64,000 bases of DNA from Glandiceps talaboti (lineage: Eukaryota > Hemichordata > Enteropneusta > Spengelidae). The notes beneath the pieces are model-generated. The model was given only the letters and a program-made list of their open reading frames with translations. It was not told the origin of the DNA and did not search any database. Position numbers and translations under genes: made by a program. Every line of letters starts with the position of its first letter. Positions within the stretch are counted from its first letter, which is position 1. Below, in pieces: positions 2,617 to 56,134 of this stretch. Where the stretch lies: contig NC_135552.1 of the NCBI RefSeq assembly GCF_964340395.1, positions 19,073,681 through 19,137,680 of the forward strand, written 5' to 3'.

Positions 2617-5600
2617 TTATTTGCACGATTCTGGGATTGGAGGGTTGGTAAATGCTCTGTGAATGAAATCTGAGATTACAGCTGGTAGGAATGTTGTAGG
2701 AAGTATAAAGAAGTGGGCGTCTAGACCAATGACGTATCGTGTACGAGGCCACCATGATGTTAATGCATGCTCCAAAGAATCGACCACTTTATCAAGTCTT
2801 GGTGATGCTATTTTGTCAATATCCTCCATTGTTCTTGCAACCACTGTGAAAGAAATAATATAGACAGTGAACTCTTTAGGTGCCCATCATAGAGCCTAGA
2901 ACTAGTAAAAGGGTTGACCTATGCATAAGGGTGGCCCCATTGTTTTTCTGTTTCTCATTACCCAACCGACCTAAATTTTCTGCTCCAACATCAAAATTTT
3001 AAACAATTATTTTCACCCGCCCTTAATATTTTGTGGAACAGCACCCTCTCTGGCAAGAATAAGCAAGTATCTGGACTGTTGACATCATCTACAGTCATGG
3101 CAGCAACGTCGACACTTGTTCAAGACAAGTTATTCAAGTGGGGGGGGGGGGGGAGCTGAAAACATACCAATTGTGTAGAGAAGCTGGGAAAGGGCTTGTT
3201 ACCAGAAATCCAATAAAAAGGAAGATAGAGAGGAGGAAAAGGAGGGGCAGAGAAACATGAAAGAAGGTGATTTTTTATTTTTTTAACTTTCTTTTTAAAT
3301 CAACCGACCACCCATAGTTGCTATGAAAAAGTAATGAGAAACATATCAAAAACTATGGTCACCCTAAGGGAGCCCCTACATGACGTACCATACACACTAC
3401 ATGACGTACCATACACACTACATGACATACCATACACACTACATGACGTACCATACACACTACATGACATACCATACACACTACATGACGTACCATACAC
3501 ACTACATGACGTACCATACACACTACATGACGTACCATACACACTACATGACATACCATACACACTACATGACGTACCATACACACTACATGACATACCA
3601 TACACACTACATGACGTACCATACACACTACATGACGTACCATACACACTACATGACGTACCATACACACTACATGACGTACCATACACACTACATGACG
3701 TACCATACACACTACATGACGTACCATACACACTACATGACTTACCATACACACTACATGACGTACCATACACACTACATGACGTACCATACACACTACA
3801 TGACGTACCATACACACCACATGACGTACCATACACACCACATGACGTACCATACACACCACATGACGTACCATACACACTACATGACGTACCATACACA
3901 CCACATGACGTACCATACACACCACATGACGTACCATACACACCACATGACGTACCATACACACCACATGACGTACCATACACACTACATGACGTACCAT
4001 ACACACTACATGACGTACCATACACACTACATGACGTACCATACACACTACATGACGTACCATACACACTACATGACGTACCATACACACTACATGACGT
4101 ACCATACACACTACATGACGTACCATACACACTACATGACGTACCATACACACTACATGACGTACCATACACACTACATGACGTACCATACACACTACAT
4201 GACGTACCATACACACTACATGACGTACCATACACACTACATGACGTACCATACACACTACATGACGTACCATACACACTACATGACGTACCATACACAC
4301 TACATGACGTACCATACACACTACATGACGTACCATACACACTACATGACGTACCATACACACTACATGACGTACCATACACACTACATGACGTACCATA
4401 CACACTACATGACGTACCATACACACTACATGACGTACCATACACACTACATGACGTACCATACACACTACATGACGTACCATACACACTACATGACGTA
4501 CCATACACACTACATGACGTACCATACACAGTACATGACTTACCATACACACTACATGACGTACCATACACACTACATGACATACCATACACACCACATG
4601 ACATACCATACACACCACATGACGTACCATACACACCACATGACGTACCATACACACCACATGACGTACCATACACACTACATGACGTACCATACACACT
4701 ACATGACGTACCATACACACTACATGACGTACCATACACACTACATGACGTACCATACACACTACATGACGTACCATACACACTACATGACGTACCATAC
4801 ACACTACATGACGTACCATACACACTACATGACGTACCATACACACTACATGACGTACCATACACACTAGACATGGGTCAACGACTGGAAAGTATGTAAA
4901 TGTGAATTAATAAATTATTAAATTAATATTCCATTTTTGAAAAGTAAAGTACAACTTACATTCTGTCACATACTCCTTTCCATAATCATCTTTGATATTC
5001 TTGGGTTGTTTATCGTATATTGCCCCAAGACGTCCAGTCAGGTAGTCCTCATCCAAGATATTTGTTCTGAAAAATCCAGGTTCAATGATTTGAACACGGA
5101 TTCCAAATGGATGCAGCATTATCCTGGAAAACGGAGTAAAAAGAATGATAAGGAAAATCTAAAATTTTGAAAGTGGCGATATGGATGAGAGAATGGCATT
5201 TGTTTTTGAGTTTTAATCAAGAAACAACTTTACTATATATGTTTTTGTACTTGAAAAAGAAGTGTTAAATAACACATAGACCAAGTCCATGATTGTTACA
5301 AAATAAATTGCAACAAGTTTTTAAAATGAGAGTAAAAAGTTTGTTATGGTAAAATATAGGAAGTGATTTATAAACAAACTGAGTAAATACAAGTGATCAA
5401 TTGTCAAGATCACAAGTAAACACACACATAATCAAACTGTTCATGCATGGTGACATTTCAGTACATTAGAAAGTGACCTATATGTATGTGTGGACTGGAC
5501 ATGGCAGAGTGTTTACAGGTTTAATCCAATACAAAGTATATCTAGAATAACAACAAATTTCAAAGAATTAGAATCAGACACTTCTTACTGATGGGACTAT

Positions 5601-6064
5601 GAAATGAAGATGAAATTCAACACCTTCGTCCTACACCATTTTGATTATACTGTGAATATGTGGTGTAATACAAATCAAAAGTATTAGAAACACCTTCATA
5701 AAAGGGCTGGTTTAATGCTGTTTGAAGTTCCATGTGATACCAATACTGTGTGTATATGAACACTTATGTTGGGTCAGTCCTCACATTAGATGGAAACGCC
5801 AGCTGGCAACACTTGTTTACAAATCCATAACAGGTGATGTCCCTAGTTACCTCACTGAAATGTTCAGTTGTTCAAATCAGATTCATTCCCATAACATGAG
5901 ACAGTATAATGGTAGCATAAAGTCAAAACTGAATATGGCAAACAGATGTTTGATTACAATGGTGCTGTTCTGTGGAACAGACTGTCCCCGTTTATGAGAT
6001 CAGCTCCAAGTTGAACTACATTTACAAGATAACTTAAGAATTTACATGGTGTTTGCTAATGTTC

Positions 6065-6103
<39 letters not shown>

Positions 6104-7200
6104 AAAAGATGAAAATGGTGGCAGTATGCTAAGTCATCTTGTAATGTAGTTGTGTCCGTACCTCAAGCCATCAGAGTATGCCTCAACTCCAGCCTTAGAA
6201 ATGGAATAGCATCCTCCAGGAATAACAGCTCTGCCCATAATACTGGCTATGTTGACAATTCTGCCTTTAGACTTCTTGATGAGGGGTAGGAATACATTGG
6301 TTACATCAATCATACCTAGTAAATTCACATCAATAACTTGTTGAAAGTCTTCTTTAGTTAGCCATTCATAGGGACAAGTCAAGCCTGGTATTCCAGCATT
6401 ATTTACAAGACCCCATAAACCTGTACAATGAATTGGGGAAAAGAATGAAAAATGTTGAGTATACTGTGATTTTATTGACATACAGTCAGTCACACATCAC
6501 CTAGTCTCCGGATGACAAAATCTGATGTGCATCAAATTCATTTCTCTTGTACCAACTTATCTATGAAACAAGAATGCCAGTGTGAGTACTCAGAGGTATT
6601 TGCACCAGTCATGAAAGTATGAGCACAGAGAACTCTGCAAGCACTCCTGCAAGTACCGTGAGTACATGTACGGCATACTTGCACTCACCCGTCATGGAGT
6701 TCTGGCATAGTATCATATTCCATAAAGCTCATCTGTCTTTGTTCAAATGAGATTATATTTTGACATTAACATTACAACGCACAAAACTAAATTTGATATA
6801 AGAGAGATGAAGGAAATGAAAGCATTGTATAGTGACTTTTGTATAGTTTATTTTACTCCTCACCTTTGCCTGATGGTAGGGAATCTTGCACTTTTTGGAA
6901 AGTTTTCTTGATACTGTCTGTATTAGTGACATCCATTTGTAAAGTAACAACTCTGCTGGAAGTGTCTTCATCTAATGCCTTGCAACCTTGTTGTGAGAAA
7001 CAGGTAGCAAACACATGGAAACCAGTCTTATCTAACTGTTTAGTCAACATGTTACCAAAGCCACGGTCACAACCAGTGATTAGAACATACTTGTCAGGTA
7101 TACCCCGGATTGTTGGTTTTCTAACTAACCATTGCAGTAACTGGTAGACAGTGATAAACACTATTAAATAAACTATGTAGTATAACATTGTGAACAACAT
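2617..7200 (-). CDS. Membrane short-chain dehydrogenase/reductase, retinol or 17-beta-hydroxysteroid dehydrogenase type, copy B (complete)
   Basis: Four exons join in frame: 7200-6864, 6420-6162, 5123-4960 and 2843-2617, each bounded by GT-AG, giving 987 nt and 328 residues, the usual length of the RDH/HSD17B6 family. The protein has an N-terminal membrane anchor (residues ~5-25), TGCDRGFG (42-49, nucleotide binding), NNAG (119-122), catalytic Ser172 and the YSISK box (Tyr184, Lys188) at correct spacing, and the family signature ALTSWWPRTRY in the last exon. Expected role: NAD(P)-dependent oxidation of retinol or 3-alpha/17-beta hydroxysteroids at the ER. Intron 2 holds a LINE fragment and intron 3 a 21-bp minisatellite. 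RDH5-, DHRS9- and HSD17B6-like proteins cannot be separated here. Confidence 0.9.
3141..3155 (+). repeat. Poly-G tract
   Basis: An uninterrupted run of about 14 G in AT-rich intron DNA. Similar G or C runs occur near 29881, 41820, 44967, 51440 and 54682. Confidence 0.8.
3376..4868. repeat. 21-bp minisatellite, about 71 units, in SDR intron 3
   Basis: About 1.49 kb of a 21-bp unit, consensus ACATGACGTACCATACACACT. Because 21 is divisible by three and the unit has no stop in several frames, it creates open frames of about 500 codons on both strands; these are artefacts of the repeat, not genes. Three variant positions (GACG/GACA/GACT and CTACATG/CCACATG) are clustered, not random. Each unit contains TGACGTA, a CRE-like half site, and the palindrome GTAC. 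It lies between exons 3 and 4 of the complete SDR. Confidence 0.97.
5600..6107 (+). mobile_element. Non-LTR retrotransposon 3' fragment with (AAAT)n tail
   Basis: The plus strand resembles the LINE tail at 40002-42609: WVSPHIRWKRQLATLVYKSI and a second-frame remnant of the YNGAVLWNRL box near 5955-5990. Stops and shifts show decay. The 3' end is an (AAAT)n microsatellite at 6061-6107, typical of CR1/L2/Jockey-like tails. It sits in intron 2 of SDR copy B, opposite to the host gene. Confidence 0.8.
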
Positions 7201-15943: not shown

Positions 15944-16017
15944 GGCGCTGTGGCTTAGTTGGTTAAAGCGCCTGTCTAGTAAACAGGAGATCCTGGGTTC
16001 AAATCCCAGCAGTGCCT
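15944..16017 (+). tRNA. tRNA-Thr (anticodon AGT)
   Basis: A 74-base cloverleaf without introns. The acceptor stem GGCGCTG pairs with CAGTGCC (one G-T), the anticodon stem CCTGT/ACAGG encloses loop CTAGTAA with anticodon AGT at 15978-15980, and the T arm is CTGGG-TTCAAAT-CCCAG. The internal A box (TGGCTTAGTTGG) and B box (GGTTCAAATCC) are intact, and TTTT at 16019-16022 can end RNA polymerase III transcription. The discriminator is T; CCA is not encoded. The body is almost the same as vertebrate tRNA-Thr(AGT), so it is very probably functional. Confidence 0.97.
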
Positions 16018-18203: not shown

Positions 18204-33595
<15,392 letters not shown>

Positions 33596-39355: not shown

Positions 39356-39997
39356 ATTTCATCGAAGTGTACGCCATTCGCTGATGTTGTTGTACTTGTC
39401 AAAAGTCTGTGATAGCTGAGGTCACTGGCACGAAAACCACTTTTGTTGCTTGTTCTTGGATGACAATCCTCATCAGTTACTACAGTTGAAACCCTTTGTA
39501 CGCTATTTCCCCGGGGAATACAAAAATAATTCGATGACTGCGATTTTTCACATATTTTTCTGTGACTGAAATTATGGAGCACACTCGCTTTCTGTACCGT
39601 AACGTACCATGTGAAGTGATTTGCATTATTCGGACGATACTATATGCAATTATGAGGGGTGATATTTTTCCACATTTATAAATTGCTCCATGAGTCTAAA
39701 TGTTATCAAATATCTAAATGACTCCCAATTTAATAGATAAAGTTACGCCTGAAAAAACTGTAGCTTTCATTTTTACGAAAACACCTATGTGTGAATAATT
39801 ATCCGTGGGGTGAGGCCATCCTCAAAATGAATGGTTAGTTCCGATATTCGATATGCCTGTGGAGTAGACCCAACCCTACCCGAACGTGCGAACATAAACA
39901 CAGCATACATTTGTTGCCCTGTATCTTTTTATAAATTTAATAAAAACTATACGTTTTATATGCAAATAAACATAAAAATACTAAAATAACTGAAAAG

Positions 39998-42609
39998 AGG
40001 AATGAAAATAGAACAAATATTTCAACACATACTATGTATTCCCCATTTCGATTATGCTGCGAATGTATGGTGTAATACGAATCAAAAGTATTTGAAGACA
40101 CTTGAGCTCCTCCATAAACGAGCTGGTCGACTGCTCCTCGAAGTTCCCCGTGATACTAGTACGGGTTGGGTATATGAAAATTTGGGTTGGGTCAGCCCTC
40201 GAATTAGATGGAAGCGCCAACTGACAACACTCGTCTACAAATCCGTAACGGGCAATGCACCTAGTTACCTCACTGAAATGTTCAATCTTTCCAACCAAAT
40301 TCATCTTCATAACACAAGACAGGCCAGTAAAGGTAACATATACATCCCTACAGTTAAAATGGAATATGGGAAACGGGCATTTCAGGTCCGTGTATATACC
40401 GTCCATTTGTTTTTCGTTTGTCTATTGCAAACAAGAAAAACGAAAAACCATTGACTGCTTCGTTTTTCGTTTTTCGTTTTCTCAATCGGAAAACGAAAAA
40501 CGAAAAACAATTTCTTTTTCGTTTTTCGTGTCATCGATCGGAAAACAGAACAAGGAAAACTAATTGTTTTTCCATTGCCGTTTCGTTTTATGGATAATAA
40601 AAAAACGGTAAACAAACCCTGTTCCTTTTTTCGTTTTTCTTTTAACACAATTAATCAATGAAAACGAAAAACCTACCCGTGTTCAGTTTTCATTTTTCGC
40701 TTTGATGGTGAGAAAAGGAATCAAGAAAAACGACTCATTCTCTATCACCGTATACTCAATCGATAGAAAACAAACTGTCTGTGTCCGTTTTTCGTTTTTC
40801 GTTTTATAGTCGGAACAAAAGAAAACGAAAGGCGCCATCTGTGTTCATTTTCAATTACTCGCGATCGTTCTGTCGATCATATATAACGATAAATCAAAAC
40901 CTGTACTATTCAGCTGTTTTCCTAGGCCCTTTATCTCCTTTTTGTGACATGGTAGAATAAACAGATCATACACGTAATAAGTAAATGTCTATCATGCGCT
41001 CGCTAACTTTATATGTGTAAAAAGTGACAACACTGATAAAAATATGAATGATAGTGTCACACATTCAGCTTTTTGAAAATTGAGCATAAAAATTAACAAT
41101 GATATGTGCATATAGTATCAAAGGTTTAAACCAATTTGGACCGTGTACAGTATGATATGACCATTACATGTGCGCTGGTTTTTCCTACGTTTCTAAATAT
41201 TATATAGCCGGTGCAGTAGGTCGTTCATGACCCCGGCTCGCCCGCGCGCTCCATGGATTGACTGGGAAATTTGCATATCGTTGTGTAACATTGTAGCTAA
41301 TGAGATCTATCTATGGTCTGCACCCCGGCCGGCCCCACTGAAAGTTGAATGAACACCTAAAACATGCCATGTATATGATGTACGTGCAGGCGTGTGTAGC
41401 ATGATGTAAATTTCAACTGTCAGTTAACAATAAACTTTATGAAATGTCAAAGAAAGCCATAACTGTGTGGTCTGGCCGGTCCTCCACTAAAATACGTGAT
41501 CACTGGTGAGATACATAATAACCATGTGTGTATGCGTGTACATGAACTATGACATTATTATTCGCTACTCTCCTATTCAATGGCACCCTGAACAGCATCA
41601 TCTAGCTGTCTGTCAGAGACTCTAGCTCTACCGCCGGTTTTGATGTGATAGACTGCACACAGTCTCCTCACGCTTCTTTCTGAAAAGCCTTTACTATCTC
41701 CATGTTGTGCTTTTATGCCACTTGCAAATGCGTTCTCCCCTCATTTACTATGAGGTGCTCTACCGTATTAACGTGTGCTTCTAGCGAAGCCATTCTTTTC
41801 AAATGTTTGGGTCAAGCCGGGGGGGGGGGGGGTTGGGGTTGGGCAAGATTTGCAATATCACGAGTATTTAAATAAAGACAAAAGAAAAGCAGGTTTTGAT
41901 TTATGAATTGGAAAATGAACGCAAATGGCGCTTTTCGTTTTCTTTTGTTCCCACTATAAAACGAAAAACGAAAAACGAAAAACGGACACACAGAGTTTGT
42001 TTTCTATCGATTGAGTATACGGTGATAGAGAATGAGTCGTTTTTCTTGATTCCTTTTCTCACCATCAAAGCGAAAAATGAAAACTGAACACGGGTAGGTT
42101 TTCCGTTTTCATTGATTAATTGTGTTAAATGAAAAACGAAAAAAGGAACAGGGTTTGTTTACCGTTTTTTTATTATCATAATTCGAAACGGCAATGGAAA
42201 AACAATTAGTTTTCCTTGTTGTTTTCCGATCGATGATTGAGAAAACGAAAAACGAAAAACGAAGCAGTCACTGGTTTTTCGTTTTTCTTGTTTGCAATAG
42301 ACAAACGAAAAACAAATGGACGGTATATACACGGACCATTTCACTATAGTGGTGTTGTTCTATGGAACTATCCATAAGATCAACTCCGAACTCATCGATA
42401 TTTAAAAGACATCTTAAGATAATGTGGGTGGATATCTTTTAAAGTGCACTCTGCGTCTGTAACTTTTTGTCCTGGTTTGTCCCTTTTGTTTGTTTGTTTT
42501 GTTTGTTTTCTGTGTACGTAATCTTGCAACAGGTTCCATTGGGAGAAGAGTGTTAATGCACTGAAATGGTGTCTGTATATGAAAGATTAATAAATAAAAA
42601 TAAATAAAT
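39998..42609 (+). mobile_element. Non-LTR retrotransposon 3' fragment, interrupted by a foldback element
   Basis: The LINE tail reads on the plus strand through LCIPHFDYAANVWCNTNQKY, LLHKRAGRLLLEVPRDTST, WVSPRIRWKRQLTTLVYKSV and MEYGKRAF up to 40384, and resumes after the insertion as HYSGVVLWN from 42342. It ends in an AT-rich (AAATA)n tail near 42590-42609. RAFHYSGVVLWN is the widely conserved box near the end of CR1/Jockey-type ORF2. The outer sequence is still open over about 125 codons, so the copy was young when hit. The related copy at 5600-6107 is more decayed. Confidence 0.85.
40385..42337. mobile_element. 1,953-bp foldback DNA transposon with long inverted arms and 6-bp target duplication
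   Basis: Terminal repeats start GGTCCGTGTATATACCGTCC and end with the exact inverse. The direct repeat ATTTCA flanks both ends (40379-40384 and 42338-42343). The arms run about 40385-40904 and 41889-42337; they are collinear, with scattered substitutions and one ~45-bp gap in the right arm. They carry many copies of the heptamer CGAAAAA or its inverse in tandem. The ~1-kb centre has higher GC in part (about 41210-41340) and no credible open frame, so the element is non-autonomous. Removing element and one ATTTCA restores the LINE frame exactly. Confidence 0.92.
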
Positions 42610-43935: not shown

Positions 43936-46900
43936 ATGGTGGGTACCATGTACGATGGAGATAAATAAATATCGGTCCAATCGTTCACACTTGAGCGTGC
44001 ATATCGGTAGTTTTGTATTAATCTTCGAAGAAAAATAACCATCCTTTCAGTTTGTATGGCTATTTGTGGGAGATGATGCAGACATTACGATAAAACGTAT
44101 ATGTTTTCTTAGATGGTGCTCATGTATACGACTTCCGTATTTCAAGCCGAGTGTTGAGTAAAATGCAACGAAAGATACAGCAAAATATTGTCTGAATCCT
44201 TCCTCATAGCACGACAAACAGTTGTGCTTGTCACTGTTAGGGGACCCAGTAATTCAATACCTAGTTGTTTTAGTTTTGGTGGTTGTTTAGGTAATATGAA
44301 TTACGTTACAGATCATCTGTTCGCCTGTCTTGTCGATGTCAATGTCATATTATTATCAGTTCTACAGGAGTACCAGAACTTGTATATTGCTCTTAAAGCA
44401 CCTCTGTCGTTTCCCACAGTGTTTAATACAGGTTAAAGAAATGTTTAGAGAAAGACTGTACATCATGATTTGACAAGTATATACACTATATTTATATTAT
44501 ATACCTAAATATTCAGTTACCAAGTGGCTTCTTTGCCATGATGGCGCCAGAAGGGATAGAAATAAGTTGAAAGCAAGCTTCTATCTTCAACGAAATCATT
44601 CTGAAAGATAATTGAATAATGACTTCCTATATGTGAGGGGAGGAATTTGGAAAGACATGGCTACATCAGTCAAAAATACCCTTGTAAATGTATCTGAAAT
44701 AACATAATTTTGATTGTCCAGACATAAACAATTGCTGAATGTGATGTTATAATCAATAAGTGTTTACACAAAATATGCTTTACTGATTGAGATTGAATGA
44801 GCCATGATACCTCTATTGTGACATGCATTCACTGAATGACATGTTATAGAAATATCAATCTTGCATGGAGTTTGATTTCAGCTTGCATAAAACATGCTAT
44901 ATGTTTGTAAACAGAATTTTAGTATGTATCAGATATTCTACATAACATAATACAGATTTTTGTGCCCCCCCCCCCCCCCAAGTTAGTATGGATTATGCCC
45001 ATCCTGTTTCAACTGTTGGGATGTAATTATTTAGTGTTATACATTTTACGTTCAGTGTTACTTTAAAATGTTGTTGTCAAATCAGTGATAACAACAAATT
45101 ACTATAGTTCTCTTGAATGTCTGTTTTGGTTCAGAAAACTTGCCTTACTTATGAATATTTATACATTTGCAGGTGAATGTGCCGAAGACTCGTCGCACGT
45201 ACTGCAAGAAATGCAGAAAACACCAGAATTTCAAGGTTACCCAGTACAAGAAGGGTAGAGAATCTGCTTATGCCCAAGGTATGTACCAGTGTGTTGTATA
45301 ATCTAGGCCTGTTCACCATTATTGGTAGTGTGGTTATGAAATTTAATAAAGAGTAACATACTCAAAAGTAAAAACAAGTGAATTAGTTATAGTGTTATCC
45401 TAGTCTTGTAGAGGAACTTAAACTACACCTCAGAAGGTTGATGAACAAAGGAGAAGGATAGTAGTACTGCTGTCTGGACTCAACTACAATGAGTAACACT
45501 GAAGTAAAGCACATTCTCTATGTGCTACACTCATTATACCATTCATATCAAGTGTAAAAATATACTGTTTCAGTTGCTTTATATACAAGTCCAGCATATG
45601 ACCTTTCTAATGTGGTCAATTAGCAAATGAAACAGTATACTTTTACACTTGATATGGATGCTACAAACGATTGTGGTACACACAGAAAATGCTTTACTTT
45701 GGTGTTATGGGTTAAAGAGTATTTCAAGTCCACATATCACAGTAAACATAGACACATATGATGAAAAAGTCCATTGATGCTCAGAGAAAAAAGGGAGATA
45801 TTTTTCTGCTAAGAAGGGCTTCTAAAATTAAACCATCAAGAAAGTTCATCTGGATATCTCATGTCCTTTTATACATGTTTTCGCTTTGACAATCATTTCT
45901 AACTCTTCATGAATTGTTGAATGTTATCAATGGTTTGTGATAAGTACACATACTGCTAATAATTTAACTTGCTGCAAATTAGTGTCATATGAGAAGATTG
46001 AGGCGTAACCCTGAAATGAGTATTCAGGCTTTATCTGGGAAGAGAAGTAATCAATAGTTGGTTTATTTTGTCCTTGCAGGTAGAAGGAGATACGATCGTA
46101 AACAGAGTGGTTATGGGGGTCAGACAAAACCCATTTTCCACAAAAAAGTAAGTTATAAACATTGTGGGATATAATCCCAGATGATAAGGAACTACAGCAG
46201 GTGTGGGTCATGTCATTGTGAAGACAAGTACATGTTATGCACAAGTCTTTTTTCATAGATTATGCTTGAAGAAGTTAATTATGGTATTCGCCAATATCCT
46301 TTGTTCATTTGAAAAATACTTGTTACTTAAGGGTCTCGTAACTCGTGGTGACAATACTCCTTAGGTTACTTGTATTTTCCTTGGGCGAATGAAGAAAAGC
46401 TGATTTAGTGGTACAGACTCTAGATTCACATGGTTCATATTTGTCTTGGTGTATTTTACAGAGCATTGCTGTGATCAATGGTAATGCATGTGGAGAGATT
46501 CACAGGGTATTTAGTTTGTCAGTGTTAATGCTGATGGGGGGATGCACAGAAGGGCCATTCCAAATGAAATATTTGATAAAAGTAAGGTTAATTCAGGGCT
46601 TGAAATCAATTTCTGGGCTTGGTAGTCAAATTTATGCAAGTGAACTGTTTCAGCTACAGTTTTCCAGTGATTGCTCTAACAGACTACCACATTGTAAATC
46701 TCGTAGTTTAGATACAATGTTTGGTAGTCTGTATGCCCTGGACTACTGCTAATTTGGAGCTCTGCAATTGATGCTATAGTGTGATTTGACCTGTCTTGTC
46801 TTGTAGGCAAAAACCACCAAGAAGATTGTACTGAGGTTGGAATGCTCTCAATGTAAAGTCCGTAAACAGATACCAATCAAAAGATGTAAGCATTTTGAAT

Positions 46901-53831: not shown

Positions 53832-56134
53832 GATAAGCAATCGAAGACTGAACCATCTGGAATTTGAAATACATATATATGTATATACAAAATGTCTTGC
53901 TATTGAAGTCACTGTGATTATAGAACTTCAATATCTAAGCTTTAAGCTTTACTATACTGCTCAGTGTTTTTCCAATCAAACTCATTAAATTCATTATGTA
54001 ACTGTTGTTTGTGTGAGGCAAATTAATGATGACGAATACTTAGTTAATCTGAGTTTGCCACATAGGATCAGTTACATTGATGATATGGCTATTGAGAGCA
54101 CATGAATTAATTGGACTTTTTGTCACTGGAAACGAATTTGAATGCGAACGGATAATGTTTCTTAAAAGTCATTTTGAAACTCTGCCCTCTTTCGGATGTA
54201 TTACCGATTTCTTTGGGTTTTTTTTTTATATATATATTATAATATTTGTTCAAAGTCAAAACCCTGTGTTTGTGTATTTTCTTTCGACGTCACTCTTTGA
54301 TATTAGCACACATTGCTTGCCACATGCTGTTAAGGTCTACATTCATGTGACATGCATTTATATACGCGTAACAACTTTACGAAAAGATTAAATGATTTAA
54401 GTAAAAATATTGCAATCAGTTGTAAATCAATTTTCAGTGTTGGATTCACACTGTTGACTTATTCTGTTGATGATACAACGGTCTCCAGAAATTGATATAT
54501 CTACCATTTGTAATGGCGACTAGTCTTCCAAAACATTGACATCTATTTTTTGTCTGATGTGCTCTTTCTGGAAACAGAATTTGAGCCCATTGTAGTAACA
54601 ATCGTGTCTTCTACGAAGATTTGTATCTTTTTACATAATGGCCTGGGTTGTGTAATTACTACGATCGAGGGAATATGCCGACCCCCCCCCCCCCCCGAGT
54701 AATTTGAAGCAGGTGGTTTCATTTTGTTTTCTGCACAAGCCTAAAGCTGAATATCTTGGAAATGTTGGTGACTAGTACATTAGACATGTACACCGGTGGT
54801 ATTCAATCTTAACATTTCCAACATTTGGATAGTATCATTGCTACACATCTGTCAGTGGAAAAATTGTGATAAATAGTAATATACAGATTTTAATCTTCGA
54901 AACTCAGTTTACTAAAGATATGTACGTGCCAAAAAACATGAAAAGAACATTAAAAAAGCTGCCCAGTTTGGAAGCTCGATGACCTACACCGTTATATATT
55001 CACGCTGTTTTGGATATCTTTGTGAAATGCACATTTTATTCTATGCCGCCGATGCCCTTTATTGACCCTGTAATGAATTATTTGTTTGTGAATTTGCAAA
55101 GGTGCCTAGTCTATACGTCACACAAATGCAGAATCTATAACTATATGTACAGTCACATGAACAACTGATTGGGGACGAGGTAGGAGAATATTCAGTACAT
55201 TATGTTGATGTCTATAGTCTTGCAAGTCTGCATGTGTCCTGAAATAATATGAAGTATAAACTTACCCTTTACTGTATTGATGACATAAAAAAATATGTCG
55301 TCCTTTTAGGAGGATACGCTGTTTTGAACATGGCATTGGTTATGATTTCATGTGATTTCTGGAATGTAATGGATTTCTAATAACCATATAAACACTTACA
55401 ATGTAGTGAAGCATGTGGATTTCTTACAGTACTAAGACTTTTTACATGAATCCTTTAACCGTAGGAAAACCTTTTTTTACAACTAAGATGTATGTGATAT
55501 TTATTTATTTATGTATTTAATTCGATATTGTTTGTGTCCTACAAGCCAGAGGACTGGATGTGGCTCTTTTTTGTATTTTGTAAATTGTATTTATGTATAA
55601 TTTGTCCACATAGGACACTTTGATAAACAATAACCTAACCTAACCTAACCAGACCAGACCTGACTGACCAGACCTGACCTGACTTAACCAGACGAGACCT
55701 GACCTGACCTGACCTGACCTGACCCGGCATGACATGCCATGGCCTGGCCTGGCCTGACGTGACATGACATGACATGACATGACGTGACATGACATGACAT
55801 GGCCTGACCTGACATGACATGACATGACATGACATGACATGACATGACATGACGTGACATAACTGAGATGCTATAAATGTGGCTTTTGCTTCAATAAGAA
55901 ATCATCCCATGGCTAGGTCTGTTGATAATTCTAATTAGAAATATTCGACATTGTGTAATTTCGTGAGATGATGGCAAACCAAATGCTCTCGAATTGTATA
56001 ATATAGACAACCTTGTCCATAACAATAGTACACAGACAAATAAAACCCTTATATTATCCGTTATCTGTTAACAGTATGAATCTAAAATGAATAAAATATG
56101 GTATTTGAACTAAAAATGGCCCTTTCATCACAGG
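53832..56134. other. Spacer between secreted protein gene and amylase copy 1
   Basis: No exon supported. A poly-C tract lies at about 54682 and a pentanucleotide array at 55628-55862. Confidence 0.5.
55628..55862. repeat. Pentanucleotide array, (CCTAA)n grading to (CCTGA)n and (CATGA)n
   Basis: Starts with four copies of CCTAA, passes through CCAGA and CCTGA units and ends in CATGA units with CGTGA variants. Each change is a single base, so the array records stepwise spread of new variants. The apparent Cys-His-Val-Met frames on the minus strand are artefacts. Confidence 0.95.

Follow-up and report, generated by a model that had tools for sequence, protein, structure and literature searches.

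The 1,953 bp at positions 40385-42337 of the window (the whole 64-kb stretch of DNA that was analysed) very probably represent a DNA transposon of the foldback type, non-autonomous, whose target was a LINE fragment already resident at the site. Foldback elements are a structural class, recognised by long terminal inverted repeats (TIRs) that contain repeats of their own and enclose an unrelated middle, and by a flanking target duplication; both features are present here. The inverted ends, the flanking duplication, the reading of the empty site and a paralogue of the target that lacks the insert were all observed directly. An earlier note on this DNA had described a 1,953-bp element with inverted arms of ~0.5 kb between two copies of ATTTCA, and had called it a foldback element inside a LINE; we recovered the same element with arms of 472 and 432 bp, found that its long TIRs carry repeats, and could align its target with a second LINE copy. 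The features on which the argument rests are as follows.

40385-42337, 1,953 bp: foldback-type element, which starts with GGTCCGTGTATATACCGTCC and finishes with the reverse complement of GGTCCGTGTATATACCGTCC
40379-40384, no strand: left target-site duplication, ATTTCA (CATTTCA, 7 bp, if the C at 40378 is included)
42338-42343, no strand: right target-site duplication, ATTTCA
40385-40856, plus strand: left arm, 472 bp, strongest palindrome centre at 40488
40857-41905, no strand: middle domain, non-inverted, no transposase recognised in the ten frames scanned
41906-42337, minus strand: right arm, 432 bp, without 45 bp that the left arm has and with one heptamer more, palindrome centres at 42267 and 42294
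39999-40378, plus strand: LINE fragment left of the insertion, aligning with the second LINE copy from 5594; open frame 39990-40454
42344-42443, plus strand: LINE continuation right of the insertion, by alignment to the second LINE copy
~5594-6068, plus strand: second LINE copy without the insert (the empty-site paralogue), target position 5948-5953

Borders and target-site duplication

The outermost 66 bp of the element are exact inverted copies of each other (40385-40450 on the left), and the inversion stops at the borders with none further out, giving termini of the form GGTCC..GGACC in which GGTCCG are the outermost letters. Sequence identity over 6 bp at the spacing of the element occurs at just 33 of the 62,017 positions in the 64-kb window, and a duplication of ATTTCA lying exactly at the inverted ends is therefore unlikely to have arisen by chance. 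A C precedes ATTTCA on both flanks, and the direct repeat around the element is thus CATTTCA, 7 bp in length. A target duplication of 6 bp is more likely than one of 7 bp, because the longer reading strips the final C from the right end and breaks the exact 66-bp symmetry. Duplications of 8 or 9 bp, the standard lengths for hAT and Mutator, are excluded, as the direct repeat ends at 7 bp.

Joining the flanks through a single ATTTCA reads RAFHYSGVVLWN, with the LINE frame kept locally. When the joined site was compared with the second LINE copy, which has no insert, 42 of 56 columns were identical in an ungapped stretch (5921-5976) that spans the insertion point, and at the level of sequence this copy shows the LINE ordinarily continuing across that point. 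The empty site is accordingly reconstructable, as had been proposed, and the accompanying statement that the join leaves the frame unchanged is correct at the join itself; it holds locally only, because small insertions and deletions relative to the second LINE copy appear a short way downstream of the insertion site. The two LINE copies share 361 identities over 450 aligned positions, with 61 gap positions, and the second copy is decayed, carrying stops (in the tblastn match) and shifts. We take the LINE fragment at 39999-40378 to be the 3' part of a reverse-transcriptase open reading frame; a Pfam search of the LINE part at 39990-40390 gave no match.

As a control for the position of the border, the left border was displaced in eight shifts of 1-9 bp, which yielded alignment scores of 434-445 compared with 443.5 for the proposed border; the shift of minus 3 scored above the proposed border (445) and that of plus 9 tied with it. 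The comparison with the LINE paralogue thus fails to single out the border to the base, a result that tells against the proposed reading, and the position of the border rests on the symmetry of the ends and on the duplication. The earlier description of borders and duplication as certain was slightly too strong, given a length of either 6 or 7 bp and a paralogue that does not discriminate between neighbouring positions.

The alignments of the LINE copies at 5594-6109 and 39999-42443 begin at a nearly identical LINE position, and the former copy then runs into a ATAAATAA-type tail; a short, repeatedly truncated LINE subfamily is possible. A diverged stretch at 24352-24555 on the minus strand is similar to the LINE protein, at 25% across 68 aa (E 4e-4), and perhaps belongs to a second LINE lineage. 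Pattern searches for relatives of the LINE protein confirmed 0 of 44 matches in genome_contigs and 0 of 6 in viral_contigs, collections of prokaryote and viral sequence that have little bearing on animals.

Architecture of the arms

When the arms were aligned with each other, 413 positions matched and 11 did not, and the five gaps measured 45, 2, 1, 7 and 1 bp; excluding gaps, the identity is 97.4%. The two arms of one element may begin non-identical and can exchange sequence. At the 45-bp gap the right arm is without half of the best hairpin of the left arm.

The arms had been described as tandem CGAAAAA heptamers, a description that is correct for one array and for the enrichment of the motif but not for the arms as a whole. 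Within the element, Tandem Repeats Finder reported a single heptamer array of 3.9 copies (41958-41984), together with two overlapping arrays with periods of 60 and 52 and ~2 copies each. CGAAAAA/CGTTTTT is concentrated in the element, which holds 21 of its 26 occurrences in the window, as is AAAACG/CGTTTT (29 of 47). The latter motif is found at 16 sites in the left arm and 13 in the right, with both orientations present in each arm, and runs both ways from element position 53 inward. A 50-nt unit with a T-rich start and an A-rich end is present in 11 copies, six in the left arm and five in the right, ten of them being 64-78% identical to the reference copy; the unit keeps one orientation across both arms, as is expected of a palindromic unit. 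The arms are therefore composed of diverged ~50-bp units that are palindromic mainly near the ends and carry AAAACG both ways, and are not simple heptamer tandems.

The capacity of the arms for self-pairing as single-stranded DNA was computed with DNA parameters and compared with 100 shuffles, giving z scores of -5.4 for the left arm and -4.2 for the right; two 472-bp stretches of the middle gave +0.5 and -1.9 against 100 shuffles each. Self-pairing of the outer 146 bp was stronger still (z -6.1), and none of 200 shuffles was equally stable. We also scanned each position of both arms for palindrome centres, again with 200 shuffles. The left arm has centres scoring 20 at 40488 and 16 at 40512, where 0 of 200 shuffles get to 16, followed by 15 at 40456 (1 of 200 shuffles) and 14 at 40430 (3 of 200), and the right arm has centres scoring 15 at 42267 and 14 at 42294, where the top score among the 200 shuffles was 13. 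The remaining centres listed score 7-11 in the left arm (n = 8) and 7-12 in the right (n = 10), with shuffle means of 9.7 and 9.4, respectively. Palindromic character is thus limited to the outer arm, and the inner parts of the arms lie near the shuffle mean.

Middle domain and search for further copies

A Pfam scan (E up to 10) of 10 of the 36 listed frames that overlap the element recognised no transposase, in agreement with the earlier remark that none is visible. The ten frames scanned are those that lie wholly or partly within the middle, coverage of the other 26 being confined to the LINE part at 39990-40390. The sole Pfam match among the ten, to DUF4627 (E 0.23), fell under its cut-off and was judged to be chance. 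Between a 116-bp segment of the middle (41004-41119) and 39636-39745, which lies upstream of the LINE, there is a weak similarity of 65% in opposite orientations (E 1e-4 to 5e-4), scoring 24 compared with a maximum of 17 over 200 shuffles of one partner; the segment in the middle is perhaps an old dispersed repeat that the middle domain acquired.

Dispersed copies that share their ends are a further mark of the foldback class. There is no second copy of the element within the 64-kb window, and the evidence of mobility consists of one insertion because a single copy lies within it. Places that match the 12-bp terminus with up to two mismatches number six in the window, a count reached by 5 of 100 shuffles, and only the two exact ends are given weight. 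The 20-bp terminus had 0 exact matches in the prokaryote and viral contig collections and the 23-bp arm pattern had 0 matches in the viral contig collection, results that say little about animals. In a phage collection, 14 records matched the element over 2-3% of its length apiece (E 0.6) and were judged to be chance. Literature searches on terms other than the terminal sequence found no published description of these ends.

Proposed mechanism of insertion

We propose that a DDE-kind transposase encoded by another copy would have bound both ends in trans, that the donor copy would then have been excised and joined to a target cut with a stagger of 6 bp (7 at most), and that filling of the resulting gaps would have produced the duplication. 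Less surely, the arms may have acted as multivalent landing pads, in which facing AAAACG motifs within quasi-palindromes could be bound by dimers or multimers of the transposase, and multivalent binding of this kind might supply end recognition beyond the reach of one short motif. Slippage or unequal exchange between units would alter arm length and repeat number, and is suggested by arms that differ by 45 bp and 7 bp.

By analogy with characterised systems, the arm repeats are plausible candidates for transposase binding sites. The accounts cited here describe THAP binding at sites within the TIR repeats of Galileo (PMC3688188) and cooperative binding by the Ac transposase of repeated AAACGG in the terminal 200 bp (PMC3260210). 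For Hermes, a quasi-palindrome made by two subterminal repeats is reported to be occupied by a pair of BED domains, the right end being bound by none and the spacing of the repeats being rigid (PMC10368747). This rigid spacing, as reported, is unlike the loose, diverged units of the present element and counts against the landing-pad proposal, as do the restriction of palindromic character to the outer arm and the half hairpin missing from the right arm. A more far-reaching proposal is that the GGTCC..GGACC ends, the 6-bp duplication and the arrays of facing AAAACG quasi-palindromes together mark an undescribed animal cut-and-paste lineage, with a multimeric transposase that would read a palindromic array and not a single terminal site; we regard this as quite unlikely.

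Superfamily placement

We assign no superfamily, because no compared group is known to fit the duplication and the ends together, the groups having been compared by description. By analogy, hAT6 would be the best single guess on its duplication and repeat-binding habit; the GGTCC ends do not conform to the general hAT terminal consensus, 5'-YARNG, which may not hold for hAT6. Such an element would be a non-autonomous passenger of an animal-lineage hAT transposase that makes 6-bp duplications and places BED domains on the AAAACG subterminal repeats, an origin that we nevertheless consider unlikely. In its favour, hAT6 groups are described as having 6-bp duplications, the length shared by the present element, and as falling within the lineage that contains the animal hAT families (PMC12730594); moreover, the repeated AAACGG of Ac and the BED-bound quasi-palindromic pair of Hermes parallel the occurrence of AAAACG in both directions (PMC3260210, PMC10368747). 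The TIRs expected of hAT elements are, however, short, at a reported 10-25 bp (PMC3942097), compared with a perfect TIR of 66 bp here, and no transposase was recognised in the frames tested of the present element. An internally deleted Polinton/Maverick derivative moved by an integrase is a further candidate: these elements typically combine 6-bp duplications with TIRs of hundreds of base pairs (PMC8969392), as seen here, and intact vertebrate members have TIRs with a mean of 402 bp (PMC8097293). The likeness does not extend to end motif, size or gene content: the vertebrate Polinton ends reported are (AGT)2, (AG)3 or (AC)3A and here GGTCCG, intact vertebrate Polintons measure 12.7-24.6 kb compared with 1,953 bp (PMC8097293), and no gene remnant was present in the ten frames tested, which leaves this origin improbable.

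We give similarly little credence to a P/Galileo-like foldback with slightly asymmetric ends and CATTTCA as a 7-bp duplication. The direct repeat does measure 7 bp, and Galileo, of the P superfamily, is like the present element in its long, internally repetitive TIRs, for which several THAP sites and duplications of 7-8 bp are reported (PMC4168063, PMC3688188); yet this reading costs the right end its last C and with it the otherwise exact 66-bp symmetry, and CATTTCA differs from the Galileo target consensus GTANTAC, itself a preference (PMC4168063). An IS3EU/GingerRoot element would share the duplication length, which is usually 6 bp in that group, but complete IS3EU families are described as always having TA..TA ends and GingerRoot as having mostly TA..TA and occasionally TG..CA (PMC10045372), as against GG..CC here, and this placement is hardly credible. 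We hold it just as implausible that the structure is no transposon and represents an inverted duplication or an assembly artefact with chance flanking repeats: the presence of one copy only within the 64-kb window examined would suit such an origin, but exact end symmetry, flanking duplication and the empty-site reading occur in combination, and the arms differ by 11 mismatches and 5 gaps, where a simple palindromic error of assembly would have left them identical. The preferred reading is a foldback-type transposon of no assigned superfamily.

Other groups were rejected on their published descriptions. Dada, which the earlier note had offered as the 6-bp comparison while leaving hAT6, IS3EU/GingerRoot and Polinton unweighed, is not supported as a comparison: its duplication of 6-7 bp is matched by the present element, but Dada is described as having only short subterminal inverted repeats and no terminal ones, as against a perfect 66-bp TIR, and as targeting snRNA and tRNA genes, as against a LINE (PMC3706591). 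At gathering score, Rfam matches nothing in the whole window but a tRNA at 15944-16017. Tetris of Drosophila virilis and Tm1 of Meloidogyne, placed in or suggested for Mutator, have reported duplications of 8-10 bp (PMC4079207, PMC3169594), and such Mutator foldbacks were rejected against a direct repeat of 7 bp at most. Both resemble the present element in their long, internally repeated TIRs; conserved open reading frames are likewise lacking in Tetris copies, and the arms of one Tm1 element may differ in length, as they do here, although Tm1 also has transposase-encoding members (PMC4079207, PMC3169594). Ginger1 and Ginger2, with reported 4-5 bp duplications and TGTNR ends (PMC2836005), do not fit.

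Other features of the window

Pfam domains in the window are of the alpha-amylase, C2H2 zinc-finger and BRCT types and, together with the LINE, suggest that the DNA comes from an animal. A direct duplication of 300 bp (284-583 and 6848-7147, 95% identity) overlaps, in its first copy, a minus-strand frame at 235-717 that looks like a short-chain dehydrogenase exon. A dispersed inverted repeat (22273-22449 and 45537-45713, 90% complementary) has in its latter copy internal hairpin arms of its own (45534-45578 and 45622-45666) and is perhaps a MITE-type family. Tandem arrays comprise a long 21-bp minisatellite at ~3208-4870, in which 73 registers reach at least 60% and each strand has open frames, a four-register repeat at 26892-27429 with spacings of 116, 127 and 115 bp, whose copies 1 and 4 are 88% alike, and a ~240-bp array of 5-bp steps of the TGACC/TGACA type at 55640-55883.

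Implications

The element is a real, well-delimited and apparently non-autonomous foldback-type transposon, of an ordinary kind; the length of its duplication and the structure of its arms are somewhat unusual. The insert-free LINE copy in the same window makes it a clean example of nested insertion. A foldback with a duplication of 6 bp, and not of 8-10 bp, would add to the case that more than one superfamily has given rise to foldback structure, for which Galileo already provides a precedent. An autonomous partner sharing these ends would allow the element to be placed and would give a concrete system for studying whether repeats in long arms serve as binding sites.
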